The notes beneath the pieces are model-generated. The model searched no databases. It was given only the letters and a program-made list of their open reading frames with translations, and was not told the DNA's origin. A stretch of DNA of 64,000 bases, taken from positions 2,806,158 to 2,870,157 of the forward strand of contig NZ_LT827015.1 of the NCBI RefSeq assembly GCF_900169075.1, in the 5' to 3' direction. Origin of the DNA: Chryseobacterium phocaeense. Its GTDB lineage: Bacteria > Bacteroidota > Bacteroidia > Flavobacteriales > Weeksellaceae. Both the position numbers and the translations under genes were made by a program. This document shows positions 4,395 to 58,194 of this stretch, piece after piece (within the stretch, counting starts at the first letter, position 1; each line of letters starts with the position of its first letter).

Positions 4395-4454
4395 AAACTA
4401 TAATGGTTATTAATAATATATGAAAACAGTAAAATTAAAATATTACTGTTCTAA

Positions 4455-4606: not shown

Positions 4607-4825
4607 TTATAACTCTTCTCTACTATGCTTCTTATCTTCTAATATTTTTGCTGCTGTGTTTGCTGTCAATGCTATAGTTTGTGTAATTGTTCGAAGGTTC
4701 ATTCTTCCGTTAGGAGAATACCTTGCTTTTTCAGCTGCATTTAACATCTTAAAATTAGTTACATTCATGTTCTTTTCTAAAAGCAAGCTTAAGTTTCTTT
4801 CCAATTCTCTTCTATTATCCGGCAT
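4607..4825 (-). CDS. Small protein, paralogue of the upstream 80-residue protein
   Basis: A 72-residue protein beginning MPDNRRELERNLSLLLEKNM. A longer reading would need a TTG start at 4853-4855; I chose ATG at 4823-4825 because the similarity to the neighbouring protein starts exactly at PDNR. The two share PDNR, then L/F-E-R-x-L/I-x-x-L, a central N-x-R-x-N element, and a C-terminal A-N-x-x-A/L pattern. It overlaps the end of the preceding gene by 11 bases and closes the AVAST-like operon. No known domain is recognised; a small helical protein is likely. Possible roles are an antitoxin, regulator or adaptor of the STAND proteins. Confidence 0.6.
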   Translation of the reverse strand: MPDNRRELERNLSLLLEKNMNVTNFKMLNAAEKARYSPNGRMNLRTITQTIALTANTAAKILEDKKHSREEL

Positions 4826-5057
4826 CTTTATTATTTTTAAATTCAGGTCTGTCAAAATTAGCTAAGGAGTTTGCCAATAATCTTGACCGCTCATCTACAG
4901 TTATAAAATTTACTCTCTTATTAGGAAGTTTTTTAGTCTTCAGCAAACTCATTATTATTCTATGATCTGGAATTGATTTAAATGTTCCCTTTTCAATGGA
5001 TTCAGCTAAAATGTGAATATGTCTCTCAAATTGTTTTCTATTATCTGGTGTAATCAT
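4815..5057 (-). CDS. Small protein of the AVAST-like operon, tandem paralogue
   Basis: An 80-residue protein starting MITPDNRKQFERHIHILAES. Its ATG at 5055-5057 overlaps the TGA of the giant protease-STAND gene (ATGA), so translation is coupled to it. It is clearly related to the 72-residue protein encoded next, which indicates tandem duplication of a tiny gene. It contains VNFITVDERSRLLANSLANF near the C-terminus. I see no signal peptide, membrane segment or zinc motif. Its conserved place directly behind a STAND effector argues for a job in that system, but none can be named from sequence. Confidence 0.65.
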   Translation of the reverse strand: MITPDNRKQFERHIHILAESIEKGTFKSIPDHRIIMSLLKTKKLPNKRVNFITVDERSRLLANSLANFDRPEFKNNKDAG

Positions 5058-12072: not shown

Positions 12073-12118
12073 AATATTTAAAGCTACTAGTTTTAGCTAA
12101 TTTATGAAAAAGTAAATC

Positions 12119-15100
12119 TTACTCAATAATTCTGTTTTGTAATTCTAATCCTATCGGATTTTGCTTAGCAACTAAATACAAAACTATTTTTTTAAAATTG
12201 TTAAGAGCTTCAGGGTTATTAATAATCGTGGGCTTATTCTTTTCCCATAAGTGACTCGCCATTTGTGCAAGTTCGTTTTTATATTCAAAAGGAACTCTAA
12301 TCAAACCTTCCGGTAGTTCTGTCTTTTCTTCCTCATTGCAAAAATTTATATATTTATTAATAATCTCAAGACCTTCATTTAAAACAGTTAATCCGGGCTT
12401 AGTTTTTAAAATTTGAGTTAATCTGAAAATAATATGAGGATTCAATGCTTTCTTTTGCATAATCTTTATATCCCGAGCCGCAATTTTTTTAAAGAAACTG
12501 AAATATTTATCATCATTCCAATATGACAAAACCAGAGCAGAAACTCCCATTAAAGTTTCCCATAAATTATCTTTTCGATAATGACGTTTGAGTTTCCAAG
12601 CGGGAGACTTAGTAGCAAAATCAAGCATTACTTCCCATTGCTTTAAAAAGCTACTATGCAAATCGCTATGTGCCAAGTGATGGACAAAGAAAGAGCTGCA
12701 AAAGTGTTCTACCAGATCTGCTGCAAGAAAACCGTACTGCATGATGCCATCGGAAAAATATTCTGCTTGCACCTCGTCCTTTTCATTGGTTTTCAAAATT
12801 ATGATTGCAATACTCTCAATAACCCACAGATGAAATTGAGAAGGATAATTGTCAAATTGTTTTAGATCTTCGGGCACTTCTCCCAATTCATAAATAACTT
12901 GATCAAACAGCTGTTTCCAAATCTTTAACAAGTGATCTCTTTCTCTCCCCTTACATTCATTAATGTCAGGCAATTTTAGAAAAATATGCCATAACATTTG
13001 AGTATCGATTCCAGGATTATGTCCGTTTGAAACATCATAATCATTATCCCAATAGCGATTTTTAGACTTTAGTTCAATTATTCTTAAATTTGACCACTCA
13101 ATTAAAGTAGTGTTCATTTTATTATTTTTAAAATCATTTATCAAATTATTTTTTTCGGCTTTTAAGTTGCTTTTTGACTTTGTCTGCGATAAAAAATTTT
13201 GCTTTGATATTTTTGCATCTTTGTATAGAACAGCGCTCCAAGATATTAAGAGATTTTGTACTTGTACGAACTTCGGATCAGACCATTTAAAATTCTTTTC
13301 AAACTCCTTAATAAATGCTGAAATAGCCTCATAAGGACTATTCAAAAGTAAAGTTGCGGTCATAAGGCGAATTTTTGCCTCTGAAGTTTCAGACAACCAC
13401 AGCATTGATATAATGATTGCAGCAAAATCTGACCAGGAATACCCACCATAATTATGACTAATGTGATTATAGTCAAATTTATAATTATTAATTGTTTCTT
13501 GAGTATAATCGATAATCCACTGCATGACTTGAGGATAATTCTCCTCCCAAACTTTTTTATGCCTCAAAAGCAATGCACATCCACCTAAAACCATCTGATG
13601 TTTTCCGGATGAAAAGCTGTAAGGAGTTTCATCATCTATCAATGCATACTGTTGGACTTTATGCCATAGCTCCATACATTCTTCAGTGGAGTATTCATCA
13701 GATTTTTCCAGCTCCTGAAAGCATACAAAAGGAAATACACGATCAGCATTTGAATTATCCGACTCTTCTCTAATCTCTTTATATCTTTGAACTTCCTCTT
13801 CAGGTTCAATATAGTTGTAGTAGTCACCTTGAGGACTCTCAACTAAAATATAGTTATCTATATTAAAAAAAGAAATGAGCCTTTCAAGAAAAACTTCCCA
13901 ATACCCCTTCGAATAGAACTCTTGTAATAACGCTTTCCACTGTAATTTTATATTCTCAAACTCTTTCCTAACAATATGGTTATTTAAAAATAAAAATACT
14001 GAGACATCTAGAAGAGAATATTTTCTATGAACCATATTATTCCATTCTTTTGCTTTTTCAAATGTATCGTGATCAAAAGATCCCATCATTTGCATACCTG
14101 ATGAATTCAAGGCACCACCGTAACTATTTTCCCAACGGTAAAAATCATATACTTCAAGTAATGGTTGTAATACTGTTGAAAATAGTGGTGGATTATATTT
14201 TCCAGTCGTTATCAAAATACTCAGTAAGGCTATAGAGTTGCCTTCTTTTAAAATTAATTCGGCATATTTTTCAACATTAGTATCATTGTCACTACTGTCA
14301 TACAAAAATTTCTCTAAAGCCATTAGAGCACTGACAATAGTATCGGGAGCGCTTGTGTTATTTCGAAACCAATAATATACGTTATGATCTCCAATAAATT
14401 CCTTAATCTCACCTTCGATATCTAATTTGATCTTCGGTATTTCTACCTCCTCTTTATTAAACTTATTAGACCATTGAACTGTAGCAAAATTAATAAGCTT
14501 AATAATAAACGAAAGACCTGCCTCAGGCCTGTATTTTAAAAATTCTAAAAAAGGACCGCGGTCGTAAAAAGGAGGAAACCACCGTCCGGAAGTATTAATA
14601 TCGAGATTATAATTCGATTCGTATCCAAAACGCAAGTTTTTAGGTTCGTCAATAAAAAGAGCTAGCAAAATTTCGGAAGCTACGTGGGGATACTTGACTA
14701 TCATCGGAAAAAAAGCAGAGTCATACTTGCAAACTTTTTCAAAAGCATCATCAACACTTTCATACGGTCCGTCAGGCCAGTGCTGCTTATCCCTTACAAT
14801 TTCATACTCGAAAAAGGATTTTCGAGTATTTTTTTCCTCTTGCAAAGATGATTTACTTTTTATTTCTCTCTCAACCCTTATTCTCTTACAAAGTTTTAAC
14901 GCCAGTTCTATTACTTCATCAGGATAATCGTCAACGGCTAGTAGAAATGCTTTGTAAATTTCCTGATCTACATGTCTTCCAACATAACCTCCATTATGCT
15001 TAAACTCAAACATCCAATTGGCAACTTCCAAAGCTATTTCAGAGCACTCTTTTCTGTATTGAACTTTATTTGCAGTGTACTCAAGCCAAAGTTTTACAAT

Positions 15101-17356
15101 TTTTATAGTTTTCTCTTTAGCGAGAGTAATAAAATCATTTTTTTTAGAAATTATAAATTCAAGAACATCAAACCAGTACTGATGGTTCGGCGTTCTGTAG
15201 TAAGAAGATGCTTCTGCAATGCTAAATTTACCATTTTCTTGTACATAATTCATAATAGTCTTATTAGGAACAGTAGCTTTAAGAAGAAATCGATCCAGAA
15301 ACCTATGAAGCAGAGCACCATCGTTCTCACTAAAGAAATCCCAGAGGGAATCTAAATATTTGTATGGGTTTGCAGAAAAAATAACAGATTCTAAAAGAAG
15401 ATCCTGAATTATCTTTTCTTTAGGTTCAGCAGAATCCATTAAAGTAAAAAGATTGACCCATTTAGAAGAATTATTATTGCCTTCAAGTAAAAAGATTCCA
15501 TATAGACGTATAGCTTTACACCATAACGGTGAGATAATATCTTTCGATAGAAGAAAAGGTTTTATCTGATCTTTATTGGCTCTGATTAGTTTATACCTTG
15601 CCCAATCTCCGAACAAGTCATGGATAAGATATAATCTATCTTGAGATTCATATAGAATTTTCGATTTTTTGAAGTCATCTACAGGTTCTACTTCGGCAAC
15701 TCCGAAATCTGAAATAGGAACACCCGAGGTTAGTCTTTGCGCCTGCTTTTCAGAGAAATCCTGAATAAACCTAGAACCTTTCGTCCCGTTAGGCTCTATT
15801 TCATACTTCCATATCCAATCGATTATTGTTGACTCTCCAATAAATTCTAATCCGGTAAGGTTTGAATTTCCCGAAACATTATGGGCTAGTAAATCCAAAT
15901 ATTTTAAGTTGCTTAAAATAGGTATTAGATGCTGATGTCTAAATAAATCTGATATTTCCGGAAAAGATTTAATAAGCTTTGGAATATATTTTTGTACGTC
16001 AATATTTAATTTTAAATCTGCTCCGGTTATGACAAGATTTTTTCTTCGAATTTTATCCAGTACACTCTCATAGTCCTCCATTTGGCAAGTAAAAAATATT
16101 TTCCATTTACCTGACGTTTTAATTGACGATAAAATAGGGACTATTAAATCAAATTCTGTATCTTTAAAAAACCTGTCTACACCATCAATAATCAGATATC
16201 CTTTCGATTGTATATTATTTACAATATCAACAATATTATGCTTTAGTCCAAAAAAGTCTTCTATACTTTTGTTTTGGACAACTTCAGAATCAATCCAAAT
16301 GAGTTTGTCATTTTCTTTTAACTTTTCAAGAATATATTTTTTTGCTAAAACTGATTTCCCATAGCCGGATTTTCCTAAAATGAAAATATTATTTATATCT
16401 GCAAACAATTCGTCTATTTCTTGAATCTCTTTTTCAGTAGCAAAAGAAATTTTATTTCCAATTTTATCTGGAATTAAATCCATTTTGGATTTACTTTGCC
16501 TGATAATTTTCCCCCAATCATCGTAATGATCAGGAAAGCCTTTGAGGTTAAAATAGTCTTTTAGTTTTAATATTACTTTATCATAATCAAGAAAGCCTGA
16601 TAATGGCCCCTGCTCGCTTCTTAAAGCACATAGGGCTTTAAATAGACTCTCTGCTTCAATTTGAGAAGAGCTAACCAGACAACCCTTACAGATTTCAACA
16701 ATATTACTTTCGTCTTTAGAATGATCATTTTCAAAGTCAAATTCAATAAACAAAATTCGGCTAAGTAGCATTATCGTATCAATTGTAGTAATATTTTGTT
16801 TAGTTCCAATTACCAAAGGACAATGAAATCCGTGATAAATTCTTTTGACACTCTGTGAAATCGACCTGTCATCAGAATTAATTCTTTCATGTAAATCATG
16901 AGGATCACATTCTTTTACAAGTCTCAATAAATTATTTAGATTGGATGAATTTTCTATAGATAGCCGCGCATTGATAATGCATAAGTAGTCGGTATCAGCA
17001 CAAAAAACTCTCTCTTCAATATTCAGATATTGATTCCAGAGATCAGCTAATAACTCTTTGTTTGGACCTGCCCCACTTATTTGAGCATTACTTTTACACG
17101 AAACTGCAATTTTTCTTCCAATACCTTTATAATTAGTACTAATTAAGAAATCGTCCAATAACCATCCATCAGATCGCACTTGATAACTGATCTTATTAAT
17201 ATATCCGATCTCGCTATCAAAAATAGGCCTATTTGATAAAAAATGTGATATAAACCAAGCAGAAGCCTTATCTTCAAAAACAAATCCTCCTCCACTAGTT
17301 TGCTTTGATGAAGCCGTTTTACGAATATTATGTTTATTTCTTTTTGACATTCTCAT
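12119..17356 (-). CDS. STAND NTPase with N-terminal nuclease-like domain (AVAST type I-like, Avs1C-type)
   Basis: A 1745-residue protein that opens the operon. Residues 20-100 look like a PD-(D/E)XK-type domain: FVFEDKASAWF, then SDGWLLDDFLI with Asp63 and Asp68/69, then KIAVSCKSN with Lys88. The usual Glu or Gln of the ExK motif is Ser here, so activity is uncertain. The NTPase has P-loop GKSGYGKS at 328-335 and Walker B LIIDGVDRF at 388-396. About 1300 residues of probable helical repeats follow and would be the sensor. The MBL gene starts 46 bases downstream. Start is ATG at 17354-17356; a second ATG lies two codons on. Together with the next two genes it makes an AVAST type I-like set. 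Confidence 0.78.
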   Translation of the reverse strand: MRMSKRNKHNIRKTASSKQTSGGGFVFEDKASAWFISHFLSNRPIFDSEIGYINKISYQVRSDGWLLDDFLISTNYKGIGRKIAVSCKSNAQISGAGPNKELLADLWNQYLNIEERVFCADTDYLCIINARLSIENSSNLNNLLRLVKECDPHDLHERINSDDRSISQSVKRIYHGFHCPLVIGTKQNITTIDTIMLLSRILFIEFDFENDHSKDESNIVEICKGCLVSSSQIEAESLFKALCALRSEQGPLSGFLDYDKVILKLKDYFNLKGFPDHYDDWGKIIRQSKSKMDLIPDKIGNKISFATEKEIQEIDELFADINNIFILGKSGYGKSVLAKKYILEKLKENDKLIWIDSEVVQNKSIEDFFGLKHNIVDIVNNIQSKGYLIIDGVDRFFKDTEFDLIVPILSSIKTSGKWKIFFTCQMEDYESVLDKIRRKNLVITGADLKLNIDVQKYIPKLIKSFPEISDLFRHQHLIPILSNLKYLDLLAHNVSGNSNLTGLEFIGESTIIDWIWKYEIEPNGTKGSRFIQDFSEKQAQRLTSGVPISDFGVAEVEPVDDFKKSKILYESQDRLYLIHDLFGDWARYKLIRANKDQIKPFLLSKDIISPLWCKAIRLYGIFLLEGNNNSSKWVNLFTLMDSAEPKEKIIQDLLLESVIFSANPYKYLDSLWDFFSENDGALLHRFLDRFLLKATVPNKTIMNYVQENGKFSIAEASSYYRTPNHQYWFDVLEFIISKKNDFITLAKEKTIKIVKLWLEYTANKVQYRKECSEIALEVANWMFEFKHNGGYVGRHVDQEIYKAFLLAVDDYPDEVIELALKLCKRIRVEREIKSKSSLQEEKNTRKSFFEYEIVRDKQHWPDGPYESVDDAFEKVCKYDSAFFPMIVKYPHVASEILLALFIDEPKNLRFGYESNYNLDINTSGRWFPPFYDRGPFLEFLKYRPEAGLSFIIKLINFATVQWSNKFNKEEVEIPKIKLDIEGEIKEFIGDHNVYYWFRNNTSAPDTIVSALMALEKFLYDSSDNDTNVEKYAELILKEGNSIALLSILITTGKYNPPLFSTVLQPLLEVYDFYRWENSYGGALNSSGMQMMGSFDHDTFEKAKEWNNMVHRKYSLLDVSVFLFLNNHIVRKEFENIKLQWKALLQEFYSKGYWEVFLERLISFFNIDNYILVESPQGDYYNYIEPEEEVQRYKEIREESDNSNADRVFPFVCFQELEKSDEYSTEECMELWHKVQQYALIDDETPYSFSSGKHQMVLGGCALLLRHKKVWEENYPQVMQWIIDYTQETINNYKFDYNHISHNYGGYSWSDFAAIIISMLWLSETSEAKIRLMTATLLLNSPYEAISAFIKEFEKNFKWSDPKFVQVQNLLISWSAVLYKDAKISKQNFLSQTKSKSNLKAEKNNLINDFKNNKMNTTLIEWSNLRIIELKSKNRYWDNDYDVSNGHNPGIDTQMLWHIFLKLPDINECKGRERDHLLKIWKQLFDQVIYELGEVPEDLKQFDNYPSQFHLWVIESIAIIILKTNEKDEVQAEYFSDGIMQYGFLAADLVEHFCSSFFVHHLAHSDLHSSFLKQWEVMLDFATKSPAWKLKRHYRKDNLWETLMGVSALVLSYWNDDKYFSFFKKIAARDIKIMQKKALNPHIIFRLTQILKTKPGLTVLNEGLEIINKYINFCNEEEKTELPEGLIRVPFEYKNELAQMASHLWEKNKPTIINNPEALNNFKKIVLYLVAKQNPIGLELQNRIIE

Positions 17357-20753: not shown

Positions 20754-21035
20754 TCAGGATTTTTTACTTTTAATTGCTTTAATATCGTATTTATTATCTC
20801 GGATCGGTTCATCAGGAAGAAAATCCTTAATGGAGCATCCTAAAGCTATTGCAATTAAATTTAAATGTATTAGATTATACTTAGCTTTTTTAGAAGGAGC
20901 TTCTATCTGTGAAATAAATCCAATATTCTTCCCAATAGAAAGAGAGAGTTCCTCTTGGGTAATGCTCTTTGATTCTCGTATTTCTTTAACACGTTTTATA
21001 ACATATCTTTCTATTTCGTCTAATGATTCATTCAT
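20754..21035 (-). CDS. XRE-family transcriptional regulator
   Basis: A 93-residue protein that is essentially one Cro/C1-type helix-turn-helix at residues 14-73: VKEIRESKSITQEELSLSIG, then GFISQIE, then LNLIAIALGCSIKDFLPDEP. It is divergent from the RNA-sigma-dCas12f transcription unit. A perfect 16-base palindrome (21070-21085) lies between the two, about 35 bases from its start codon and at the -33 position of the opposite promoter. It is therefore the likely repressor of that unit and of itself. Binding is inferred from position and symmetry. Confidence 0.82.
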   Translation of the reverse strand: MNESLDEIERYVIKRVKEIRESKSITQEELSLSIGKNIGFISQIEAPSKKAKYNLIHLNLIAIALGCSIKDFLPDEPIRDNKYDIKAIKSKKS

Positions 21036-21102: not shown

Positions 21103-21110
21103 TATATTTG
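21103..21110 (+). promoter_or_regulatory. Bacteroidota -7 element for the ncRNA-sigma-dCas12f transcript
   Basis: TATATTTG matches TAnnTTTG exactly and predicts a start near 21117. No TTG is present at -33, where the palindrome lies instead. The transcript would begin with about 300 bases of folded RNA before the sigma gene. Confidence 0.5.
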
Positions 21111-21116
21111 TAAAAT

Positions 21117-21417
21117 AAGTTATTGAAATGTAACTTTGCGATACTTCAAAGAAATATAGAAGCTATTGCTTAGAATCTCGAACTGAAAACTGGTACTTTT
21201 TAATATGCGAGAGGATAAGTAAGGTAGCTCACGACCTAGGCGTGAGCTCACTTATCTGCATATAAGGTATACCAGTGCCCCAGTTCGGATATGTTGAGTT
21301 TCACGCCATTTATTTGCGGACATGATGCAGTGAGATAGTGTATAAATGGTACAGATAATTCGTCCTGAAATCTAAGCAGTTCCTTTTAGCAATAATTAAG
21401 CTGAAAATATACCGCTT
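21117..21417 (+). ncRNA. Structured noncoding RNA upstream of sigma/dCas12f (candidate tracr-like scaffold)
   Basis: About 300 bases without a gene but with strong nested pairing. CGAACTG 21179-21185 pairs with CAGTTCG 21281-21287; ACTGGTA 21189-21195 with TACCAGT 21270-21276; ATATGC 21203-21208 with GCATAT 21258-21263; GATAAGT 21214-21220 with ACTTATC 21250-21256; AGCTCACG 21226-21233 with CGTGAGCT 21241-21248. All are nested in one arm. A second hairpin pairs CCATTTAT 21306-21313 with ATAAATGG 21342-21349. Cas12f nucleases need a long folded tracrRNA or a single guide RNA, so this is a natural candidate for the scaffold. A leader riboswitch or attenuator is the alternative. The pairing is read directly; the role is inferred. 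Confidence 0.65.
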
Positions 21418-22233
21418 ATGAAGAAAAAACACTTTCTGCCCCGAATGTTGACTGATCATCAGTTATATGAACTGCTGAAAAAAGGCAATCCCACCGCTCT
21501 CGAACACATCCATCTGCGCCACAAGAGACTTCTTTTCTGGGTTGGATTTCAGGTGCTTAAGGATGATTTTGTAGTGGACACTATTGTTCAAGATACGTTC
21601 CTTAAATTGTGGCTACACCGCGACAGCATTGAAACACCTGATCATATTACAGGCTTTTTACGCTTTGTGATGAAAAGGGATTGTATAGCGTATCTCAGTG
21701 CTCCCAGAAATAAATTCACGCGCTTAATGGCTTCTCTTGACAGTTTTGAGAATTATCAGGATTATCTTGCAGGTTATGATCCTCTGAAGAATAAAGAATA
21801 TTTATATAGCCAGGAATCCGACCAAAAAAAATTCGATGAAATCATAAAGGTCTTACCCGTTTTGAATCCTAAAAGAAAACACCTGATAGAACTTTGTCTA
21901 GAATATGGTTTTCAGTTCAAACCTATCGCAGAAGCTATGGGAAGCAGTGTGACAAGCATAAGCACGGAGGTGAGCAGAGCCATAAATGATCTTCGTAAAA
22001 TTCTTAAAGTTGCTTCATTTGAGCCACCACAAGAAAAAACTTTCAATGAAGAAGAGCAGTCAGAAAAACTCAGCAGTCAGCAACTCGAGATTATCAAAAA
22101 ACGGTTTGAACAGAAATCCTCTTTTGCAGTGATTGCAAAAGAACTCAAACTGCCGGAAAAAGAAGTCCAACGGGAATTTCTGAACGCCTATCAGCACCTG
22201 CAAAATCAAAACCGTTCTAAAATACCGCTTTAA
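21418..22233 (+). CDS. ECF-like sigma factor linked to dCas12f
   Basis: A 271-residue sigma-70-family protein. Region 2 covers about residues 12-95, with DDFVVDTIVQDTFLKLWLHR typical of ECF sigma factors. Region 4 covers about 138-196, with VLPVLNPKRKHLIELCLEYG and a helix-turn-helix ending SRAINDLRKIL. A third, C-terminal HTH-like block at 218-262 (SSQQLEIIKKRFEQKSSFAV, then IAKELKLPEKEV) is extra compared with usual ECF proteins of about 180 residues. Its stop lies one base before the dCas12f ATG. In reported Bacteroidetes dCas12f-sigmaE systems the sigma factor is brought to DNA by the guide complex and recruits RNA polymerase; the tight linkage suggests the same here. No anti-sigma gene is adjacent. 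Confidence 0.82.
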   Translation: MKKKHFLPRMLTDHQLYELLKKGNPTALEHIHLRHKRLLFWVGFQVLKDDFVVDTIVQDTFLKLWLHRDSIETPDHITGFLRFVMKRDCIAYLSAPRNKFTRLMASLDSFENYQDYLAGYDPLKNKEYLYSQESDQKKFDEIIKVLPVLNPKRKHLIELCLEYGFQFKPIAEAMGSSVTSISTEVSRAINDLRKILKVASFEPPQEKTFNEEEQSEKLSSQQLEIIKKRFEQKSSFAVIAKELKLPEKEVQREFLNAYQHLQNQNRSKIPL

Positions 22234-22234
22234 T

Positions 22235-23329
22235 ATGGAAAAGTCTACTATAACCCTGACCCGAAAAATTCAGCTGGTCATTGATGTTCCATCTGATAAT
22301 AAAAGCGAGATGTGGGAAAAGCTTTACCGTTATCAGAACCGCTGCTTCCGTGCAGCTAATCTGATTGTTTCCCATCTTTATGTGCAGGAAATGATCAAGG
22401 ATTTTTTTTACCTCACCGAAGAAATCCAATATAAGTTAGCTGATGAAAAGAAGGATGAGATGGGCATCTTTAACCGCTCAAAGACAGGAACTACTGCAAG
22501 AATGGTCTTTGATCGTTTTAAAGGAGAAATTCCCACAGACATTCTGGGATGCCTGAACAATACGATCCAATCCACCTTTTCTAAAAACAAAGCCGACTAT
22601 TGGCAGGGATCAAAATCGCTGAGGAACTTTAAAAAGGATATTCCCATTCCACTTCCTGTTAAATGCATCAGTAAACTAAAGTACGATACTCAAAAGAAAG
22701 CGTTTAGCTTTAATTTGTTTGCGATTCCTGTCAAAACTTACTTAGGGAGAGATTTCTCGGATAAACATTTAGTCCTAGAACGGCTTTTAAGAGAAGAAAT
22801 CAAGCTGTGCAACTCACAAGTTCAGCTGAAAGACGGTAAGATCTTTTGGCTTGCGGTCTTTGAATTTGAAAAGGAAAATCACGGATTAAAACCCGAAATC
22901 ATTGCAGAAGCGACTCTATCATTAGAACATCCACTCGTGGTAAAAGCCAATAATGTACGAATGAATATAGGCTCGAAAGAAGAATTCCTCTACCGCAGGC
23001 TGGCGATCCAAGCCAGTAATAAAAGGATTCGAGCCGGAGTCGCTTACTCCCATTCAGGACATGGAACCAAACGGAAACAGAAGGCACTGCACAAAACAGA
23101 GAATCTGGAAAACCGTTTTGTCAGTCATCGACTTCATCTTTACAGCAGGATGCTGATTGATTTCTGCATCCGGCAACAGGCAGGCACCTTGATTCTTAAA
23201 GATCAGGAAGACAAAATAGGGATTGCAAAAGAACAGGAGTTTGTGCTTCGCAACTGGAGCTATTATGAATTGCAGACCAAAATAAAATACAAAGCAGAAA
23301 AAGCCGGTATCGAATTGATCATCGGATAG
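22235..23329 (+). CDS. Nuclease-dead, truncated Cas12f homologue (dCas12f)
   Basis: A 364-residue protein of the Cas12f/TnpB superfamily. Diagnostic blocks are EEFLYRRLAIQASNKR (249-264), GHGTKRKQKALHK (275-287), and FVLRNWSYYELQTKIKYKAE (336-355), a Cas12f signature. The catalytic site is gone: the RuvC-I Asp position reads L-S-L-E (Ser229) before the conserved His-Pro; the RuvC-II Glu position is Lys322 in LILKDQ; and the protein stops at residue 364, so the zinc finger and RuvC-III are absent. It should bind guide RNA and DNA but not cut. It is coupled to the sigma gene upstream (one-base gap) and followed by a guide-like RNA. This matches the reported dCas12f-sigmaE RNA-guided transcription systems. 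Residue equivalences are my manual alignment. Confidence 0.82.
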   Translation: MEKSTITLTRKIQLVIDVPSDNKSEMWEKLYRYQNRCFRAANLIVSHLYVQEMIKDFFYLTEEIQYKLADEKKDEMGIFNRSKTGTTARMVFDRFKGEIPTDILGCLNNTIQSTFSKNKADYWQGSKSLRNFKKDIPIPLPVKCISKLKYDTQKKAFSFNLFAIPVKTYLGRDFSDKHLVLERLLREEIKLCNSQVQLKDGKIFWLAVFEFEKENHGLKPEIIAEATLSLEHPLVVKANNVRMNIGSKEEFLYRRLAIQASNKRIRAGVAYSHSGHGTKRKQKALHKTENLENRFVSHRLHLYSRMLIDFCIRQQAGTLILKDQEDKIGIAKEQEFVLRNWSYYELQTKIKYKAEKAGIELIIG

Positions 23330-23440
23330 CTAAAAAAATGAGGGTGCTTGTAAACCCATAGGGAGGTTTTGAACACTCACTAAATACTGGAAACTAAATA
23401 CTTTTTCTGGTGTATACAACGGCGTGGGTTTCTTTTTTTT
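23330..23440 (+). ncRNA. Candidate guide RNA 3' part: repeat-like hairpin, possible guide, T-tract
   Basis: The 110 bases after dCas12f fold: AAACC 23352-23356 can pair with GGTTT 23365-23369, or GTTTTGAACAC 23366-23376 can pair with GTGTATACAAC 23410-23420 (two mismatches and a wobble). The loop holds a 10-base direct repeat ACTAAATACT at 23379-23388 and 23393-23402. Cas12f repeats characteristically end in CAAC just before the spacer. By that analogy the guide would start at 23421 with GGCGTGGGTTTC, followed by eight T (23433-23440), which could end transcription. The guide length of about 12 is short but similar to guides reported for nuclease-dead TnpB repressors. This assignment is inference. 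Confidence 0.4.
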
Positions 23441-23632: not shown

Positions 23633-24793
23633 TCAGAGTCTTTTTATCTTTCTTTTATTTTGAATTGGAATATCCTCGATCTCATAATTTGTACTATTAT
23701 TACCGAATTGCAACAAAGAGAAAAGCTGATTTGTAATCTCAGTATCTTTAAAAATCTCATTGAAGGCAGCAAATGGAACCGTATTTTCTTGCGAAATTTT
23801 CTGTGCTATTTTTTCCATTTCCGATATCAAATTTTGATTATTTGTTCTATCTAAGTTTGGACTTCTATATCTTGAAAATTTGATTTCTCTTTCAAGAATA
23901 TTAGTAATAGAATCTAAAAATTTTTTCTTTTCAGAAGCAAAAACGGTCGGGTTGGACAATAGAACGGCGTTTGTGTTTTTGAATAGATATACTTGTTTTT
24001 TTAAATCATCAACCCTTGTATTGAGCTCAGTAATTTGTTTTGACTTAGACTCTAACTCAGTTTTATTTTTAAGAATTGTGCTTTTATAAGTTCGAAGTGC
24101 TTTTTGATAATTCGCAATTGTTTTGTCAGTCTTAATTTTTTTAAAACCTAAAAAATCATTTTCCTTTACTATCAGCTCTTCCGATTTTTTGGAACTCATC
24201 TCAGATTTCATCGTATTGAATCTTTCTTCCAAAACTTTAAGATCTTCTTCTTTTTGCTGAATTTTAAATTGAATAGCCTCTAATCTTCCTTTCGATCCAG
24301 AAATTCCTCTTTCCATATTCAGGCATTCAGCGGTCAGATCCTGCATTTTTGAATAGTGGTAAGATTGATGTTTAAGTGTTTTACCAGTTTCCAAATCTTG
24401 CCAGTCAGCCACCAAATGAGCGTGGTAATTGGGTTTCCAATCTTTCGTGTCTTTATCTGTATGACCTTCATCTTTATGAATAGCAATTTGAAAAACACGA
24501 ATATTCAATTCTTCTTCTAGTCTCTTCGCCAAGTTTTGAAGTTCCAGCATGGTTGTATTTTCTTTGATAACAACTACAGCTTCCCGAACTGGCATTGCAT
24601 TCTTCTGCAATTTCCTTCCGGACTTTTCTTTACAGTATGCCTCGATTTGTTGGATTCGGTTTGCTATTTTCTGCTCCATCCAATATTCATTCTTTGATGT
24701 CAGATCTTTACGTATATAGTCAAAAGTCTTCTTTCTGAAATTATGAGTTTCAGAATCCGATTTGACAGCTTTAAAATTAATTGAAGTCTTCAT
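23633..24793 (-). CDS. Mobilization relaxase (MobV/Pre-like)
   Basis: A 386-residue relaxase. The N-terminal half has FQIAIHKDEGHTDK, then KPNYHAHLVADWQD, giving the His-rich metal site HxH of a Pre/MobV-type relaxase, and SYHYSKMQDLTAECLNMERG. The C-terminal 200 residues are a long charged coiled coil, the usual accessory region. It nicks oriT and leads the DNA strand during conjugal mobilization by a helper element. The upstream intergenic DNA (24794-25071) holds strong inverted repeats fitting oriT. No coupling protein or mating-pore genes are visible, so the element is mobilizable rather than self-transmissible, at least within this window. Confidence 0.8.
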   Translation of the reverse strand: MKTSINFKAVKSDSETHNFRKKTFDYIRKDLTSKNEYWMEQKIANRIQQIEAYCKEKSGRKLQKNAMPVREAVVVIKENTTMLELQNLAKRLEEELNIRVFQIAIHKDEGHTDKDTKDWKPNYHAHLVADWQDLETGKTLKHQSYHYSKMQDLTAECLNMERGISGSKGRLEAIQFKIQQKEEDLKVLEERFNTMKSEMSSKKSEELIVKENDFLGFKKIKTDKTIANYQKALRTYKSTILKNKTELESKSKQITELNTRVDDLKKQVYLFKNTNAVLLSNPTVFASEKKKFLDSITNILEREIKFSRYRSPNLDRTNNQNLISEMEKIAQKISQENTVPFAAFNEIFKDTEITNQLFSLLQFGNNSTNYEIEDIPIQNKRKIKRL

Positions 24794-24811
24794 TATTTTT
24801 CATCTTTAAAA

Positions 24812-24829
24812 GTTTATCAAAGATTTCTT
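24812..24829. promoter_or_regulatory. Palindrome ATCAAAGATTTCTTTGAT upstream of relaxase
   Basis: An 18-base perfect inverted repeat 20 to 35 bases upstream of the relaxase ATG. Its position suits an operator for relaxase autoregulation or a regulatory protein of the element. Binding protein unknown. Confidence 0.35.
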
Positions 24830-24903
24830 TGATTAAAATTGCTGTAAAATATTATGCAGAATTCCAATTTACCTGTGCATATTTTGCGCACCTTTGATAA
24901 AGA

Positions 24904-24935
24904 CCTGTGTGCTTTTAACACAGGTTTTTACCAGT
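24904..24935 (+). terminator. Terminator-like hairpin between oriT region and relaxase
   Basis: ACCTGTGT and ACACAGGT form an 8-bp stem around a loop of about seven bases, followed by TTTTTA on the plus strand. It would stop plus-strand transcription before the oriT-like structure. Confidence 0.5.
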
Positions 24936-24957
24936 CAATCTTAGTCTATTTTACTCA

Positions 24958-25040
24958 GGTTAGAAGCCTCGCAGAGCGTATTTGAAACTTTGTTGGGAGG
25001 AACGACCTTCAAAGTTGCGAATGCGCTCCTAACTTCTGCG
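24958..25040. other. Candidate oriT: large imperfect inverted repeat
   Basis: Arms 24974-24992 and 25010-25028 match at 16 of 19 positions when one is reverse-complemented (GAGCGTATTTGAAACTTTG against the other). The loop is TTGGGAGGAACGACCTT. Outside them AGAAG and CTTCT, and CGCAGA and TCTGCG, pair again. It lies upstream of the relaxase gene, the normal place for oriT. The nick site cannot be placed. Confidence 0.45.
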
Positions 25041-25071
25041 GGTAGTTGGTGAAAACATACAGCACGATTTA

Positions 25072-26055
25072 TCAACGTTTCATTTTAAAACCATTTGAGT
25101 TTCTAATTTCTGGTTCCGGCTTTCTCTCTTCTGTTTTATCAGCTTCAGGAAATTTTATAGAATTCTTACCTAAGTTAATCGAGACATCATTGTTTATCCG
25201 ATGCATCAAAAATTCGTTCAGATCTTTATGGTTTGAATAGGCACTCGAATGATCTTTTGCTTCTGGAAAAGATTTTATGATTAAAGACTTACATTTCATC
25301 CCTGCATTATCATTATCTAAAAAAAGATTGATATCAGAATAATTTTTCAAATGTTCTATGGATTTGTTTAAAAGAGCAATGGAATTCATTACGAGAATTT
25401 CTCCTGAGAAAGATTTCTGCATTTCTATAAAAGATAAGGCATCCATAAAGCCTTCAAAAACTGCTACACCTTTTACATTTTTATCTTGAAAATTTAATAT
25501 ATTCTGTACATTACTATTGAGATTAAATATTGAAATATCCTTTTTCAACAATGAACCTTTATAAAAAGAATTGCGAAGCTCAAAGCCTCCGGATAAATTC
25601 TCGAAGCCAATTGCGTAGAGTTTCTTTTCTCCGATTGTAAATCGTACTTCTTTTATATAATCATAGATTTTAGGACTTAATCCACGTCCCTGCAAATATT
25701 GTTTTAGGTTTGGATTTTGGAGACCCAGTATTTCATCAATTCTGTAATTTGGTTCTGACTTTTTCACCTGTGCTTGCTGATGAAAAGAAGAAAAATTTTG
25801 TTTTTTCGCCCAGTCCAAAACTTCATTTACCGAGGTCTTTAAATATTTCTTCATAAAATCGGTGTTATTACCTCCTATTCCTTCTGAATGAAGATACCAA
25901 GCATTAAGTCTTTTATTTAATTTAAATGAGGCTTGGGATTCGCTGGCAAAGGGGTTGAGATACCAAGCTTCTTTTTCATTTTGTTTCGTGGGAAGGTGTC
26001 CGAGAGAAAGGAGGACTTCTTCCAACGATATGCTGTTAAATTGTTTGCAGTTCAT
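25072..26055 (-). CDS. TOPRIM-domain primase of the mobile element
   Basis: A 327-residue DnaG-like primase. I chose ATG at 26053-26055 (MNCKQFNSISLEEVLLSLGH), the usual start in the family, rather than an upstream start that adds 27 unconserved residues. The N-terminus resembles the DNA-binding region of plasmid primases (WYLNPF, AWYLHSEGIGGNN). The TOPRIM centre is GVAVFEGFMDALSF with its Glu, and INLFLDNDNAGM with the Asp-x-Asp pair, both needed for metal binding. It would prime replication of the element after transfer. It works with the SF3-type helicase gene upstream in the same direction; iteron-like repeats lie between them. Confidence 0.83.
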   Translation of the reverse strand: MNCKQFNSISLEEVLLSLGHLPTKQNEKEAWYLNPFASESQASFKLNKRLNAWYLHSEGIGGNNTDFMKKYLKTSVNEVLDWAKKQNFSSFHQQAQVKKSEPNYRIDEILGLQNPNLKQYLQGRGLSPKIYDYIKEVRFTIGEKKLYAIGFENLSGGFELRNSFYKGSLLKKDISIFNLNSNVQNILNFQDKNVKGVAVFEGFMDALSFIEMQKSFSGEILVMNSIALLNKSIEHLKNYSDINLFLDNDNAGMKCKSLIIKSFPEAKDHSSAYSNHKDLNEFLMHRINNDVSINLGKNSIKFPEADKTEERKPEPEIRNSNGFKMKR

Positions 26056-26089
26056 AGAATTAAATTTTCGTATTGTGAATGAGATATTT

Positions 26090-26245
26090 TTTGTTGAATT
26101 GTTGAGTAAACATTGTAACCTATTGATTAAATACAATTTGGATATTCAACAAAGTCTCAACGATTCAACAAACTAGAGTTTCAGCACTCAACAGACATTC
26201 AACAAAAAGTTGGATTTTAAAGTTTGTTGAGGATTTTGTTGACTG
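26090..26245. repeat. Iteron-like repeats of ATTCAACAA, candidate replication origin
   Basis: At least three direct copies of ATTCAACAAA (26144-26153, 26163-26172, 26197-26206), a related CTCAACAGA near 26187, and inverted copies TTGTTGAAT (26091-26099), TTGTTGAG (26099-26106), TTTGTTGAGG (26223-26232) and TTTTGTTGAC (26234-26243). The DNA is AT-rich and lies between the primase and helicase genes. Iterons next to replication genes are classic origins, but a regulatory site is possible. Confidence 0.5.
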
Positions 26246-26275
26246 TTAAGTATTTGATTTTATTTTCATTATCAG

Positions 26276-27505
26276 TTAATTCAACAGTTCAACATATTTA
26301 CTAAGGATAAAATCCTTTTTTATTGTGAAAAACCGTCCAACTGAATTATTCTGGTAAAAGATTCCAGCAAAATCAATATCGTATCTGATATAAGTCAAAC
26401 CATTAGTTTGTGGAACTAATTTCCAAGTTTCTTTGAGTAGATTTCGAATATCATTTCTTGTCCAATACGTTGGTCTGAACATTCGATTCATCATATTCAG
26501 CAAATCTTGTGGAACAACATTGATCTGTTCATCATTATTGCTTTCAAAAAACTCAAATAGCAACTCAATAATCCTAGATTCCAGTTTATTATTATTCTTG
26601 AAAACTAATTTTTGAAGTGCTTTAGTTCTTATTTCATCGGCAGAAAACCACATTCTGGTTTTCTTCTCAGTTGAAAATGGTCGATCAATTAAAAACCTAA
26701 GAAAATAAGGAATCTCCGAAATGAGTTTGCTTAGAAACTCGGTATTTTCAGTTTTAATGGGATTGATTTTCAGTATCCAGAATCGGATTTCATTTTCATC
26801 AATTTGAATGAAATTTTCCTCATTATTAGAACACAAAATAAACTTGGCGAAAAAATCGATTTCTTCTCTATCTTTTCCTTTTGCCTCTAATTTATCTTTA
26901 TTGGTTGTCGACAAATACTTTAATCGTTCGGTAATTTCTTTTTTATCAAAGAAAACTTCATCTATCGCCACTACTAACATTGCTGCCCAATCGGAATTGA
27001 ATTGACTTCCAAAAGAATCACCTTTAATGTAGGTCATGTTCAACCCGAAAATCTCTTTCAACCATTTGATGAATGTAGATTTTCCGGTTGATCTTTCTTT
27101 AGAAACCAAACATAAAATTGGTAGAATTTGCGTTGGAAATTGTAAAAGAATTTTCAAGTAATCCAAACCCATTTCCAGCTGCTCGCCGAAAATATGTTCG
27201 ACAAATTTTAACGAAAAAGGAATTGAGTTTTTTAAATTTTCCTTTTCACAAGAAGGAGCAAAAGGAATTTCATTATAAATATTATAAAAACCTTTAACGA
27301 TTTGTTGATAATCTAAATGTTCAGGAATACAGCAAAACCCATCATATTTCGGAATATCACCAACAAAACTTTTTCCGTGGTCATTGATAATTGTTTCCCG
27401 ATTCCAACGAACTAAAACCGAAGTTGTATCACCAGAGATTAAGGGCTTTTCTATGTTTTTATAGTAAGTGGTTCCAACTCTCAAATAAGGGGATTTCTTG
27501 CTCAT
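26276..27505 (-). CDS. Primase-helicase-like P-loop ATPase (SF3/DUF5906 type)
   Basis: A 409-residue protein with a central SF3-like ATPase: SKERSTGKSTFIKWL (Walker A about residues 135-143), DWAAMLVVAIDEVFF (Walker B) and a following sensor region FAKFILCSNNEENFI. Proteins of this type, often annotated DUF5906, unwind replication origins of plasmids, phages and integrative elements. Its ATG overlaps the stop of the upstream excisionase-like gene (ATGA at 27502-27505). With the TOPRIM primase and the repeats downstream it forms the replication module. Confidence 0.78.
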   Translation of the reverse strand: MSKKSPYLRVGTTYYKNIEKPLISGDTTSVLVRWNRETIINDHGKSFVGDIPKYDGFCCIPEHLDYQQIVKGFYNIYNEIPFAPSCEKENLKNSIPFSLKFVEHIFGEQLEMGLDYLKILLQFPTQILPILCLVSKERSTGKSTFIKWLKEIFGLNMTYIKGDSFGSQFNSDWAAMLVVAIDEVFFDKKEITERLKYLSTTNKDKLEAKGKDREEIDFFAKFILCSNNEENFIQIDENEIRFWILKINPIKTENTEFLSKLISEIPYFLRFLIDRPFSTEKKTRMWFSADEIRTKALQKLVFKNNNKLESRIIELLFEFFESNNDEQINVVPQDLLNMMNRMFRPTYWTRNDIRNLLKETWKLVPQTNGLTYIRYDIDFAGIFYQNNSVGRFFTIKKDFILSKYVELLN

Positions 27506-27879
27506 CTTGACAAATTTTGATTAGAACCTATATTTGACTGTCGTGAATTTTTCCTAAAGTTGGCTTCCGCTTCTGATTGAATTTCCTGTAGAGTTTTCTT
27601 TTTACCTTTCGAAATCCAGTCTAAAAGTTCATCTTCAAAAAAGTAGAGTTTCTTCCCATTTTTATAACAGGGAATTTTTCGGGTTCTGACCAATGTGTAA
27701 ACAGTCGGTTTTGCTTTGCCAATTAATTGACAAGCTGCTTCAATGTCAATCGGAACTCTCTTTTGAGAAATCACAGGAACTTCTTTTCTTTCTACAAGAA
27801 ACTTAATCTCTGCGATTTCGCTAACTAAATGTGCGACTGCTCGTGGCAGGTTTTCAAATGAAATTTCGTTACTATCCAT
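27502..27879 (-). CDS. Excisionase-like helix-turn-helix protein
   Basis: A 125-residue DNA-binding protein of the MerR/HTH_17 excisionase group. The HTH is IDIEAACQLIGKAKPTVYTL, followed by VRTRKIPCYKNGKKLYFFED, the typical wing, and LLDWISKGKKK. An N-terminal helix, about 35 residues, precedes it. It heads the replication operon and overlaps the helicase gene by four bases. Such proteins act as excisionases or as transcription regulators of flavobacterial integrative elements. Confidence 0.8.
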   Translation of the reverse strand: MDSNEISFENLPRAVAHLVSEIAEIKFLVERKEVPVISQKRVPIDIEAACQLIGKAKPTVYTLVRTRKIPCYKNGKKLYFFEDELLDWISKGKKKTLQEIQSEAEANFRKNSRQSNIGSNQNLSR

Positions 27880-27915
27880 AACTAATTGTTTTTAATTGTT
27901 ATGGTGCAAAGAAAA

Positions 27916-27968
27916 AAAGTGATTCCTCCGTGATAGCTGTAAACACGCAATCACAGAGGAATCACTTT
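27916..27968. terminator. Long inverted repeat, terminator or operator
   Basis: AAAGTGATTCCTC (27916-27928) pairs with GAGGAATCACTTT (27956-27968); GTGAT (27930-27934 region) continues with ATCAC (27950-27954), making about 18 bp. It separates the broken gene from the excisionase-like gene. On the minus strand the hairpin is followed by TTTTTTTC, so it fits a terminator of the upstream operon. Confidence 0.55.
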
Positions 27969-28004
27969 ACAAACACTATGTTTTGTAATTTTTTATAAGT
28001 TTTA

Positions 28005-28784
28005 TTAGTATGTCAAATTTTCTTGAATTTTGATTGTGCCTTTTTTAGGCTCGTCCTTTAAATGTGATTTGATGGTATCAACATCAATATCATCAAGCGA
28101 AACGAACACAGTTTTTAATAATTTCGAAACCTGTTCTTGTTTTATAGGCTTAAAATGATTCCAAATATTCCAGCCAAAATGATAGAGATCAAGATTTGAA
28201 AGTTCTTTGGTCACGACTGAAGTGTGAGGTGGGATTTCTTCTTGTTTTGAATAAAGACTTATTGATTTGCAAATTTCATCAAGACTTTCGTCAGTTACAT
28301 ATAAAGCAAATTGATTACGGGTATAATTAATAGCTATTTGTAATTTCTGATTTTAAATCTGTTGCTTTTCTTGAAGTTGAACTTTTCTTATACACTCCAA
28401 ATTTACCAATACAGAAGTTTGCCCTACAGTAATTTCCTGTGGATCTTCGTCGAAAAGAATTGATGAATTATCATTGATTACTGTTTCTTGCTCCTCAATT
28501 TTTTCATCTAAATTATTAGCTGGAACTGATTGTATCTCAGTGTTTATTGAATTCTTACGTTTCTGTATAAATTTTTTAATACCTACTAGAATTACATCCA
28601 GAAATAAAATTATAATACCATAAATCAAAACACTGAAAGCGGTAATTGACCAAAAAACAATATTCGCAGTATATTCATCTCCTCCTTTATGAAGAAAAGA
28701 AAGTCTTGCCAATGTTCCTGCAACTACACATACGAGCAGAACCGAAAGATAAATAACTATATATTCGAAATATTTCAAATTCAT
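28005..28784 (-). pseudogene. Mobile-element membrane protein gene broken by an in-frame TAA
   Basis: ATG at 28782-28784 overlaps the integrase stop (ATGA). The first ORF is 143 residues with two membrane segments (about 6-27 and 40-66) and a polar tail, ending QLQEKQQI then TAA at 28353-28355. The same frame continues without interruption for 115 codons: NQKLQIAINYTRNQFALYVT up to a second stop at 28005-28007, including LYHFGWNIWNHFKPIKQEQV. That C-terminal block is familiar as the end of a single protein beside integrases in Bacteroidota elements. The simplest reading is one 259-residue gene with a nonsense codon. An internal restart (GTG near 28212) could still make the C-terminal piece. 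Confidence 0.65.
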
Positions 28785-30028
28785 TTTTGTAAATTCTTTA
28801 GATGAATGGCTTGTGAAGCTTTATTTTTCTTTTCATCTACCACTTTTGCGTAAACTTGAGTAGTTTTTACGTTTGTATGACCAAGCATTTTACTCACGGT
28901 GTAAATATCTGTTCCACTCGAAAGCTGCAGAGTAGCAAAAGTATGTCTAAAATTATGAAAAGTTATTTTTTTGGTAATTCCTGCACTTTCAATCCACTTT
29001 TTAAGTGGACGAGAAATCCAAGCTGGATTAGTCAGATTTTTAAAAATCAAATCAGTCTGAAGACCTACTTCACCACAAAGCTGTAATGCTTGTTTAGAAA
29101 TCGGCATGTATTCTACACCTTTTGTTTTTTTCTGCGTGAAATTGATTTTTGCTTGCTCATTTTCGATAGTTAATTCGTTCCATGTTAGTTTTTGGATATC
29201 AGAATGGCGTAGACCGGTTAAAGCTGAAAATAGCGCTGCACGTTTAAGAACATCAAGTTCGCAAGGCGTTTCAACCAATGTATTAAGTTCTTCCAGAGTT
29301 AAATATTCTCGTCTTGATTCCTCATGTGGAATCGATTTTACTTTAGCAGAAATATCAGATGTAAAGTAACCATCAATAAAAGCTTCTTTTAACGCAGCTT
29401 TAAAAACAGAAAAATATGTTGAAGCAGTATTCTGAGAAATAGTATTCTCCTTATTATTTCCATTTTTTGCAGTCAAAAGATATGATTTAAATTTTTCACA
29501 GAATTTTGTATTTATCTGTGAAAAGGTAATTTTTTCACCTCCAAAATCTTTTAGAAATTTAATGGAGCGATACCAATTTATTTGTATAGATTCAGAACTG
29601 TTTTTATGCCTCTTAGTGACTAACAAATCAAAATATTTAACAAAATCCTGCTGAGATTTTTCTTTTTCTTCAGCCTTTATTGCATCAAGCTCACTGTAGA
29701 GTTCCATATTATCATATTCTCTTTGACGTAATTTACGAAGAGAATCTGCGTAGATCATTGTTTCTCGGTCATTTTCACTTTTACATACGATAATTCCGTT
29801 ATCATCTCTTTTAGGTTTAAATGAAACTGAATCTTGCGTAGTTCTTGCAGTCCTTTTTTTGTCGAAATCTACAGTTGTGACACTTCGGTTTAAATATTCC
29901 CGAACTCGTTGTGCTTTCTCCTTACCAGCCACAATAACAGGATAACTTTCCAAGTAAATGAACCATTCTTTTCGGAATTCGGCTTTTCGCAATCTTACTG
30001 TAACTTTAGTTTTCAATAATTCTCTCAT
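28781..30028 (-). CDS. Tyrosine recombinase (site-specific integrase)
   Basis: A 415-residue phage-type integrase with an N-terminal arm-binding region, a SAM-like core-binding domain (about 120-220) and a catalytic domain. Catalytic residues are Arg in TGLRHSDI, the HxxR of FHNFRHTFA, His of LGHTNVK and Tyr in TTQVYAKV. It starts inside the stop of the upstream HTH gene (ATGA) and overlaps the downstream broken gene in the same way. It lies near the right end of the element, whose junction with the dnaK region must be between about 30600 and 30755. No convincing att repeat was found by eye. Confidence 0.9.
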   Translation of the reverse strand: MRELLKTKVTVRLRKAEFRKEWFIYLESYPVIVAGKEKAQRVREYLNRSVTTVDFDKKRTARTTQDSVSFKPKRDDNGIIVCKSENDRETMIYADSLRKLRQREYDNMELYSELDAIKAEEKEKSQQDFVKYFDLLVTKRHKNSSESIQINWYRSIKFLKDFGGEKITFSQINTKFCEKFKSYLLTAKNGNNKENTISQNTASTYFSVFKAALKEAFIDGYFTSDISAKVKSIPHEESRREYLTLEELNTLVETPCELDVLKRAALFSALTGLRHSDIQKLTWNELTIENEQAKINFTQKKTKGVEYMPISKQALQLCGEVGLQTDLIFKNLTNPAWISRPLKKWIESAGITKKITFHNFRHTFATLQLSSGTDIYTVSKMLGHTNVKTTQVYAKVVDEKKNKASQAIHLKNLQK

Positions 30029-30594
30029 TTTCCGTCAAAAATTTTATCGATTAAATTTTTAGGCACATATACGAAACTTCCAACTTTCTTTGTCGGAATT
30101 TTATTTCTTTTAATTAGGTTTGTTACGGTTCCTGGATCAGCGTGGAATTTTGAACTAATTTCGGAAATTGTGTAGCAATTACCAACTTCAAAATTGGGTT
30201 TCTCAATTACTATTTCTTTTTTCTCTGGTATTTCAACGGCTGAAAACAAAGCTTCCAAATCTGATCGCTTCACGCGAGTCAGTCTTGTTCCAAGGTTAGT
30301 CCCAGTAATTATTCCTCTTTTTATATATCTGTGAATGGTATCTTTTGATATTCCAAACATAACGGTAGCTTCAGCAACCGAAATAAATTCCCTCGTTTGT
30401 ACTTCAGCAATCTTGTTTTTATATTTTTGTAAAAGAATTTCTTTTTCTACTTTTTCTTTTTCAAGTTTCTTCTTTGCTTTTAATGCTTTATTATTACAAG
30501 AAGTAGAACAAAAACGACTTGTAACTGTCTTTGCTTCAAAAGGTTTTGAGCAATGCTCACAAACTCTCGGTATTTTTAGTTTACTAAATCCCAT
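30025..30594 (-). CDS. Zinc-ribbon protein with two excisionase-type HTH domains
   Basis: A 189-residue protein. The N-terminus has CEHCSKPF and RFCSTSCNNK, a four-cysteine zinc ribbon. Two HTH_17-type units follow: ISVAEATVMFGISKDTIHRY with KRGIITGTNLG (about 72-112) and YTISEISSKFHADPGTVTNL with IKRNKIPTKKVG (about 141-178). It heads the integrase operon and probably acts as directionality factor or regulator. The two HTH units look like an internal duplication. Confidence 0.72.
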   Translation of the reverse strand: MGFSKLKIPRVCEHCSKPFEAKTVTSRFCSTSCNNKALKAKKKLEKEKVEKEILLQKYKNKIAEVQTREFISVAEATVMFGISKDTIHRYIKRGIITGTNLGTRLTRVKRSDLEALFSAVEIPEKKEIVIEKPNFEVGNCYTISEISSKFHADPGTVTNLIKRNKIPTKKVGSFVYVPKNLIDKIFDGK

Positions 30595-57952: not shown

Positions 57953-58140
57953 TATCTTCGCACTTAAGATTTTAACGAAAAAATATAAAAGCATCTGCTT
58001 TTTCTTGTAGGAGAAAACTGTCAATTTTCAAAAGCAACAAGAATAGTAATGCCTTCGCTCTGCGTAGGCTATTTTCTATTTGTTGCTTGGGTATGACAGT
58101 GCCTCTCTTACAATAGATTATAGTCCTACGCTTTTTCTAT
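57953..58140 (+). ncRNA. Candidate rod-shaped noncoding RNA, possibly 6S-like
   Basis: A -7-like element TATCTTCG at 57953-57960 precedes a strongly folded stretch. TGTAGGAGA 58006-58014 pairs with TCTCTTACA 58104-58112; CTGTCA 58018-58023 with TGACAG 58094-58099; AAGCAACAA 58032-58040 with TTGTTGCTT 58080-58088; ATAG with CTAT inside; GCCT 58051-58054 with AGGC 58066-58069. AAAAGC near 57987 can pair with GCTTTT near 58130. The long rod with internal bulges recalls 6S RNA, which binds RNA polymerase, but I cannot prove the family. The structure is seen; the identity is a guess. Confidence 0.5.
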
Positions 58141-58194
58141 TGTCCTCATTCTAATCTGAAAAAATAAAAATTTGCCACATCATGCCATATAATA

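Follow-up and report, generated by a model that had tools for sequence, protein, structure and literature searches.

The 64,000-nucleotide (nt) stretch of the Chryseobacterium phocaeense genome analysed in this work (hereafter the window; contig NZ_LT827015.1, positions 2,806,158 to 2,870,157) contains a gene for a sigma factor of the extracytoplasmic function (ECF) type followed, after a gap of one base, by a gene for a nuclease-dead Cas12f (dCas12f), with both open reading frames (ORFs) intact. A structured leader RNA and a divergent helix-turn-helix (HTH) gene lie upstream of this operon, and a predicted guide RNA lies downstream of it (Table 1). The guides of many related loci repeat one strand of a predicted terminator in the leader, and the meaning of this shared strand is the main subject of the present report.

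Table 1. Features of the sigma-dCas12f locus and the second leader copy, with positions in the window.
Feature	Positions	Strand	Length (amino acids, aa)	Basis
Divergent small HTH gene, XRE/Cro-C1 type	20754..21035	-	93	HTH_19 3e-6, HTH_3 2.4e-5
Promoter-like motif TAACTTTG	21131..21138	+		fits TAnnTTTG; predicted leader start directly after
Structured leader RNA	21139..21319	+		model R1 match at 21166-21316 (152 bits); fold; covariation
Leader strand GGCGTGAGCTC, predicted 5' strand of terminator	21239..21249	+		same as guide positions 1-6, 8 and 10
Predicted RNA-guided transcription start	21284	+		46 nt from base before guide match
GTTGAGTTTCACGCC, predicted 3' strand of terminator	21293..21307	+		T-rich run follows
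ECF-type sigma factor gene	21418..22233	+	271	ORF list, Pfam, PDB match
Nuclease-dead Cas12f gene	22235..23329	+	364	PDB 9n9c match
Predicted guide RNA scaffold GAGGGTGCTTG...GTATACAAC	23339..23420	+		conserved across 26 aligned loci
Predicted guide GGCGTGGGTTTCTTTTTTTT	23421..23440	+		letters vary after constant ACAAC in relatives with other guides
Second leader copy	57995..58141	+		R1 81 bits; first found by nhmmer; fold z -4.95

The sigma factor and dCas12f

Judged by homology, the pair is a member of the known dCas12f-sigmaE family, to which the initial annotation had already compared it. The dCas12f aligns over residues 1-364 of 364 with PDB entry 9n9c, named "Nuclease-deactivated Cas12f" (529 bits, 7.1e-158), and matches further chains of the same name (9n9m, 9n9o and 9n9q), while the sigma factor aligns over residues 17-263 of 271 with chain C of 9n9q, named "RpoE" (2.3e-76). 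In the sigma protein, Sigma70_r2 and Sigma70_r4 were matched (Pfam scan), as was TIGR02985 (2.6e-23, under the cut-off of that model). In the alignment of dCas12f with its nuclease relative 9nzo, "GVDLGIN" is replaced by "AEATLSLE", the E of "QME" is replaced by "K", and the window protein stops ahead of the zinc finger and of the third RuvC residue. Taking the first D, the E and this third residue to be the catalytic ones, the features of an active Cas12f/TnpB (RuvC D-E-D and zinc finger) are absent from the window protein in this alignment. The initial annotation had described a Cas12f lacking catalytic residues and cut off before its zinc finger, as well as a sigma factor with an extra HTH (here HTH_38 at residues 217-244, with a score under the Pfam cut-off), and these descriptions hold. 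The distinct subtype that it had suggested on their basis does not: in the solved system, dCas12f stops at this very residue and RpoE carries the C-terminal extension too. The missing zinc finger and the extra sigma HTH are thus ordinary traits of the family, and the leader with its HTH gene is a separate module (see below).

Scanning named genomes yielded 25 dCas12f loci (in Chryseobacterium, Epilithonimonas, Soonwooa and metagenome-assembled relatives), and a protein search gave 767 relatives. In an even draw of 395 genomes across the order Flavobacteriales, dCas12f is present in 23 (threshold E 1e-20), with identity down to about 60% in another family; in plasmid, phage and viral collections, its relatives are at most 36% identical. 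Some relatives are fragmentary (L026 and L034) and one has a split sigma gene (L045; labels of the L0xx and L1xx kind denote fetched loci, and Gxxx surveyed genomes). Such copies would fit a pair that is decaying on a mobile element and has no present target, an explanation which we regard as very improbable given that the window ORFs are intact, that in 24 of 25 related loci dCas12f has its full length or differs from it by at most two residues, and that the guide RNA scaffold is conserved.

The guide RNA downstream of dcas12f

Directly 3' of dcas12f lies a stretch (GAGGGTGCTTGTAAACCC...CTCACTAAATAC...GTATACAAC) that is conserved in the 26 aligned loci, and the guide begins after it, at 23421, reading GGCGTGGGTTTC... 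In most Weeksellaceae, GGCGTGGGYT and a T run come after this conserved scaffold, and some distant relatives and a few close ones have two to four copies of the scaffold, with differing letters after ACAAC. In particular, L032, L033, L035 and L048 have three or four scaffold-plus-guide units 3' of dcas12f (in L035, the 3' end of dcas12f is itself duplicated within the array), and single scaffold copies follow the dcas12f fragments of L026 and L034. Since the constant part is kept while the 3' letters change, the stretch can be read as scaffold plus guide, and a guide RNA is predicted to be encoded at the locus, downstream of dcas12f; the T run of the guide probably also ends the RNA. In the genome of the window, the scaffold is matched only once. 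The folding energy of this RNA is no better than that of shuffled sequences (z -0.03, 88 of 200 as good), and the case for its reality therefore rests on conservation. The initial annotation had placed folded RNA on both sides of the operon, which held upstream (z -3.66) and failed downstream, though the downstream sequence is strongly conserved.

The structured leader RNA

The leader is predicted to start directly after a motif which fits TAnnTTTG, the consensus of the Bacteroidetes -7 element, and a similar promoter-like motif is found ahead of most, not all, aligned leaders. The predicted start and end (21139-21319) give a length of about 180 nt, shorter than the 300 bases or so initially estimated. 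The window leader folds better than its shuffled versions (0 of 200 as good). In the 22 aligned copies on which the covariation model R1 was built (both window copies included), pairing in the four core helices amounts to 98.6%, both sides are changed in 11 of 23 pairs, and no shuffle out of 500 attains any of the covariation measures. We conclude from this strong covariation that the leader is a separate structured RNA family. A known RNA family was considered for it and rejected, since Rfam 15 gave sub-threshold matches only and none above the gathering cut-off, for the window and 10 leader-bearing loci. The possibility that this upstream RNA is the guide RNA was also rejected: the scaffold with the variable 3' end sits downstream, and the upstream RNA is found in 75 genomes without dCas12f.

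Profile searches located the leader some 1100 nt ahead of most dcas12f genes, and in solo copies as well. The second copy in the window sits upstream of a protein (58396-60006) with a type IX sorting tail (Por_Secre_tail). A large protein without Pfam match at 1e-5 also lies downstream of this copy, and a similar protein pair follows another leader copy of the same genome (L070).

The guide repeats a strand of the predicted terminator

Across the leaders, the strand GGCGTGRGCTC and the 3' strand GAGTTYCACGCC are paired in 95.9% of cells, with a T run after the latter; 3 of 11 pairs are changed on both sides, slid controls give 39-68%, and shuffles do as well in 1 to 24 of 500 cases (among the solo leaders described below, 4 of 64 could not be parsed for this strand and one more is without it). 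The pairing with the 3' strand is predicted to form a terminator. A competing pairing of the same GGCGTGRGCTC strand with a 5' partner is found in 98.3% of cells and stands out less from shuffles, 9 to 469 of 500 reaching what was observed.

It is this shared strand that the guide repeats. Guides were compared with their own upstream DNA in 51 cases (three guides were added by hand, namely those of the window and L011 and the second of L030; the partial L026 and L034, repeat upstream sequences and the fourth and orphan guides of G350 are omitted), and 37 of them match over 6-12 nt at the leader position. In 29 of these 37 the match is of at least 8 nt and, for each, at most 1 of 26 to 82 background windows equals it, although the 51 comparisons are of related loci, so that the 29 matches are not independent events. 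When the 51 rows are summed, 599 of 3270 background windows are as long as what was observed, most of them in rows where the guide has no match. In the genome of the window, the guide has 8-nt matches with two other leaders (L062 and L063).

Unusual letters are seen in three loci. L033 has no R1 leader, and its guide, a different one (AAAGCCTTCCC), shares 11 nt with the DNA upstream of its own sigma gene in the same place. The G350 guide GCGTGACATC has a 9-nt match, three unusual bases included, with leader L103, which carries the unusual strand GCGTGACATT and precedes a susC homologue (3.2e-62) elsewhere in the same genome; dCas12f-sigmaE targets are reported to lie upstream of a susCD operon, a position seen here for this one guide of G350. 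Finally, L030 has a second guide that agrees with the leader of that locus over 12 nt. In these three loci, compared at the level of sequence, guide and target share unusual letters. As for other guides, the first guide of G350 scores 10/14 with leader L101, its third guide has two other sites at two mismatches, the guide TGAGCGGTTTTC, common to L035 and L048, matches none of the compiled leader copies compared, and the other guides of G350, L035 and L048 had no match among them either.

Based on these matches, we propose that the dCas12f-sigma pair would be recruited by the guide to the terminator strand of the leader, and that transcription would start past this strand and into the operon, a reading to which we give a little better than an even chance. 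The guide RNA could also act on the leader RNA, not the DNA: GGCGUGGGYUC would pair with GAGUUCCACGCC, either blocking the terminator as it is transcribed or being titrated by leader transcripts. The guide is indeed nearly complementary to the 3' strand of the terminator too, and the G-U pairs needed in the window (GGCGUGGG with UUUCACGCC) are allowed in RNA. We consider this second explanation unlikely in view of the solved family members, which by their chain names are a nuclease-deactivated Cas12f with RpoE (the former presumably binding DNA), and of the L033 guide, which repeats the upstream strand though no R1 leader is present there.

Leaders with and without dCas12f

The leader is found in 98 of the 395 Flavobacteriales genomes, all 23 dCas12f genomes being among them (the filters of this survey were strict, one of the five copies in the genome of the window being missed). 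The other 75 leader-bearing genomes are all negative for dCas12f at E 1e-20, and a search for hidden dCas12f homologues, run without positive control, found none in the 63 leader-only genomes examined.

In order to describe the neighbours of the leader, we took 64 solo leaders, a non-random sample of 60 chosen from the listed matches (the first 20 picked mostly by score) and four from the genome of the window. A susC homologue lies downstream in 33 of them (after a member of a family of about 190 aa in two, and after another gene in L084 and L087), this family is alone downstream in 25, and neither is found in 6. Eight of the 31 complete SusC proteins were scanned and all match TIGR04056, while 14 scanned members of the 190-aa family (e.g. 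L062:7793-8311) gave no convincing Pfam match. Of the 64 solo leaders, 61 have a small divergent ORF flagged next to them, and 41 of 60 such ORFs scanned match HTH_3 (the ORF flagged at L063 is outside these 60); the divergent XRE-type gene of the window, reported already in the initial annotation, is of this kind by its HTH_19/HTH_3 matches. By gene content, then, leader and divergent HTH gene are a separate module, found most often ahead of susC, and the sigma-dCas12f operon occupies a place often held by susCD elsewhere. Being found ahead of susC in solo copies, the upstream RNA is not private to dCas12f.

These distributions give weight to a third explanation, namely that the leader is a stand-alone attenuator, answering to the HTH protein or to another signal, and that the guide was copied from the leader and has its working targets elsewhere. 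Besides the 75 of 98 leader-bearing genomes without dCas12f, it is consistent with four loci (L003, L005, L007 and L010) which keep the GGCGTGGG guide and have lost the match in their own upstream DNA, and with guide position 9, which tracks the leaders of the same genome unreliably. At this position, solo leaders have T in 8 of 18 cases in genomes with a T guide and in 2 of 33 in genomes without dCas12f (counting GGCGTG[AG]G leaders only, and with G297, G307 and G351 entering without a guide). One of the 8 T leaders comes from a genome where a C guide is present too, and G177 holds both kinds of guide.

Several observations weigh against recruitment of the pair to the leader. The group test at position 9 ceased to count as support when guides from G177 and G307 were taken into account, G307 having C guides in both copies yet T in both of its solo leaders. 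The G350 guide scores 10/14 with L103 and with its own leader alike, though its unbroken run is of 9 at L103 and of 5 at its own leader. In 14 of the 51 comparisons the guide has no match of at least 6 nt at the leader. The match of the window guide with its own leader is of 6 nt, a length reached by 19 of 278 background windows, and taken alone is not significant. The base before the match in Weeksellaceae is C or A (A in the window), and dCas12f-sigmaE targets are reported to have a 5'-G neighbour base, which is found in L029 and L103. The leader strand is equally conserved in genomes without dCas12f, so that targeting does not explain its conservation, and none of the four other leaders of the genome of the window was seen ahead of susC.

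Other results count against the stand-alone attenuator, which we also hold to be an improbable account. A pattern search of the genome of the window with the first 16 nt of the guide gave no site other than the guide itself at up to one mismatch, and one site at two mismatches, and the three loci named above share unusual letters between guide and target.

Proposed mechanism and its meaning

If the pair is recruited to the leader as proposed, the following steps can be envisaged. The leader would be transcribed from the TAnnTTTG promoter, transcription mostly stopping at the terminator (GGCGUGRGCUC with GAGUUYCACGCC and a U run). dCas12f with its guide would bind and open the DNA of the first strand of the terminator, oriented toward the operon, and the sigma-RNA polymerase would start about 46 nt downstream of the base before the guide match, the target-to-start distance of dCas12f-sigma being about 46 nt. 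The resulting mRNA would keep the 3' strand of the terminator and be without the 5' strand and, because of this, the terminator could not form. The same bypass may operate at other leaders, since the leader strand is nearly constant and one guide could thus address several leader-controlled operons; the pair's own operon would be included, giving positive feedback. Where dCas12f is absent, some other factor would have to operate the leader, and the divergent HTH protein may be that factor.

More tentatively, and with the chances in our view somewhat against it, the near-invariant guide could make the pair a master activator of a leader regulon comprising SusC/SusD receptors, surface proteins and its own operon, through this attenuator bypass. 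If so, RNA-guided attenuator bypass would be a new mode of gene control, and mobile elements that sometimes carry the pair would thereby steer the surface receptors of their hosts. As far as sequence can tell, the machine is a known one, the leader family and the strand that it shares with the guide appear to be new, and the targeting mechanism is likely. A literature search returned no leader of this kind among its titles, and it did not reach the dCas12f-sigma reports. A widespread leader family ahead of SusC/SusD operons, with a conserved strand that is repeated by many guides, makes the native targeting of the dCas12f-sigma machine directly testable. Independently of the pair, the leader family recurs in many genomes that have no dCas12f, as a control element of nutrient-receptor operons that still calls for an explanation.

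Genomic setting

Between the dCas12f operon and dnaK (23633-30594) lie genes for a relaxase-like protein (weak Pfam match), a Toprim primase, a VapE/DUF5906 protein, an HTH_17 protein and a tyrosine integrase, the last of which adjoins dnaK. Relatives of the relaxase-like or Toprim protein are found in the flank of 20 of 45 related loci (some of which were fetched twice), and the mobile gene set reaches dnaK in L002, L003, L006 and L020. From its neighbours, the pair looks as if it often, not always, travels with an apparent integrative mobilisable element; a search for its left end gave no clear repeat of the end on the integrase side. Additionally, the region left of the locus (443-17356) contains genes of the defence type, namely an Avs1a/Avs1b-like pair, a helicase resembling HamB and, with a weaker match, an Avs4-like gene (PADLOC profiles), and the region 54597-57248 holds a C-5 cytosine methylase gene, with a short Vsr-like gene recognised nearby by eye (56805-57248).

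Comparison with known systems

The closest known system is dCas12f-sigmaE (9n9c, 9n9m, 9n9o and 9n9q), which is reportedly the subject of published work on RNA-guided transcription. Both window proteins are homologous to it nearly end to end, including the truncated end of dCas12f and the C-terminal part of sigma. The window operon is placed behind a structured leader with a divergent HTH gene, and its guide repeats a strand of that leader; the comparison with the solved system is one of proteins alone.

Attenuators and riboswitch leaders are similar to the window leader in being structured 5' RNAs in which a predicted terminator and a competing hairpin share one strand. The window leader differs from them in having no family in Rfam 15 and in that its shared strand has the letters of a CRISPR-type guide.

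TldR is a TnpB-derived RNA-guided repressor, carried by a prophage, which represses a flagellin gene (PMC13418256). TldR and the window dCas12f are alike in being nuclease-dead relatives of TnpB/Cas12 used in gene regulation, and, unlike TldR, the window system has a coupled sigma factor, an expected activating role and a guide matching a multi-copy leader.

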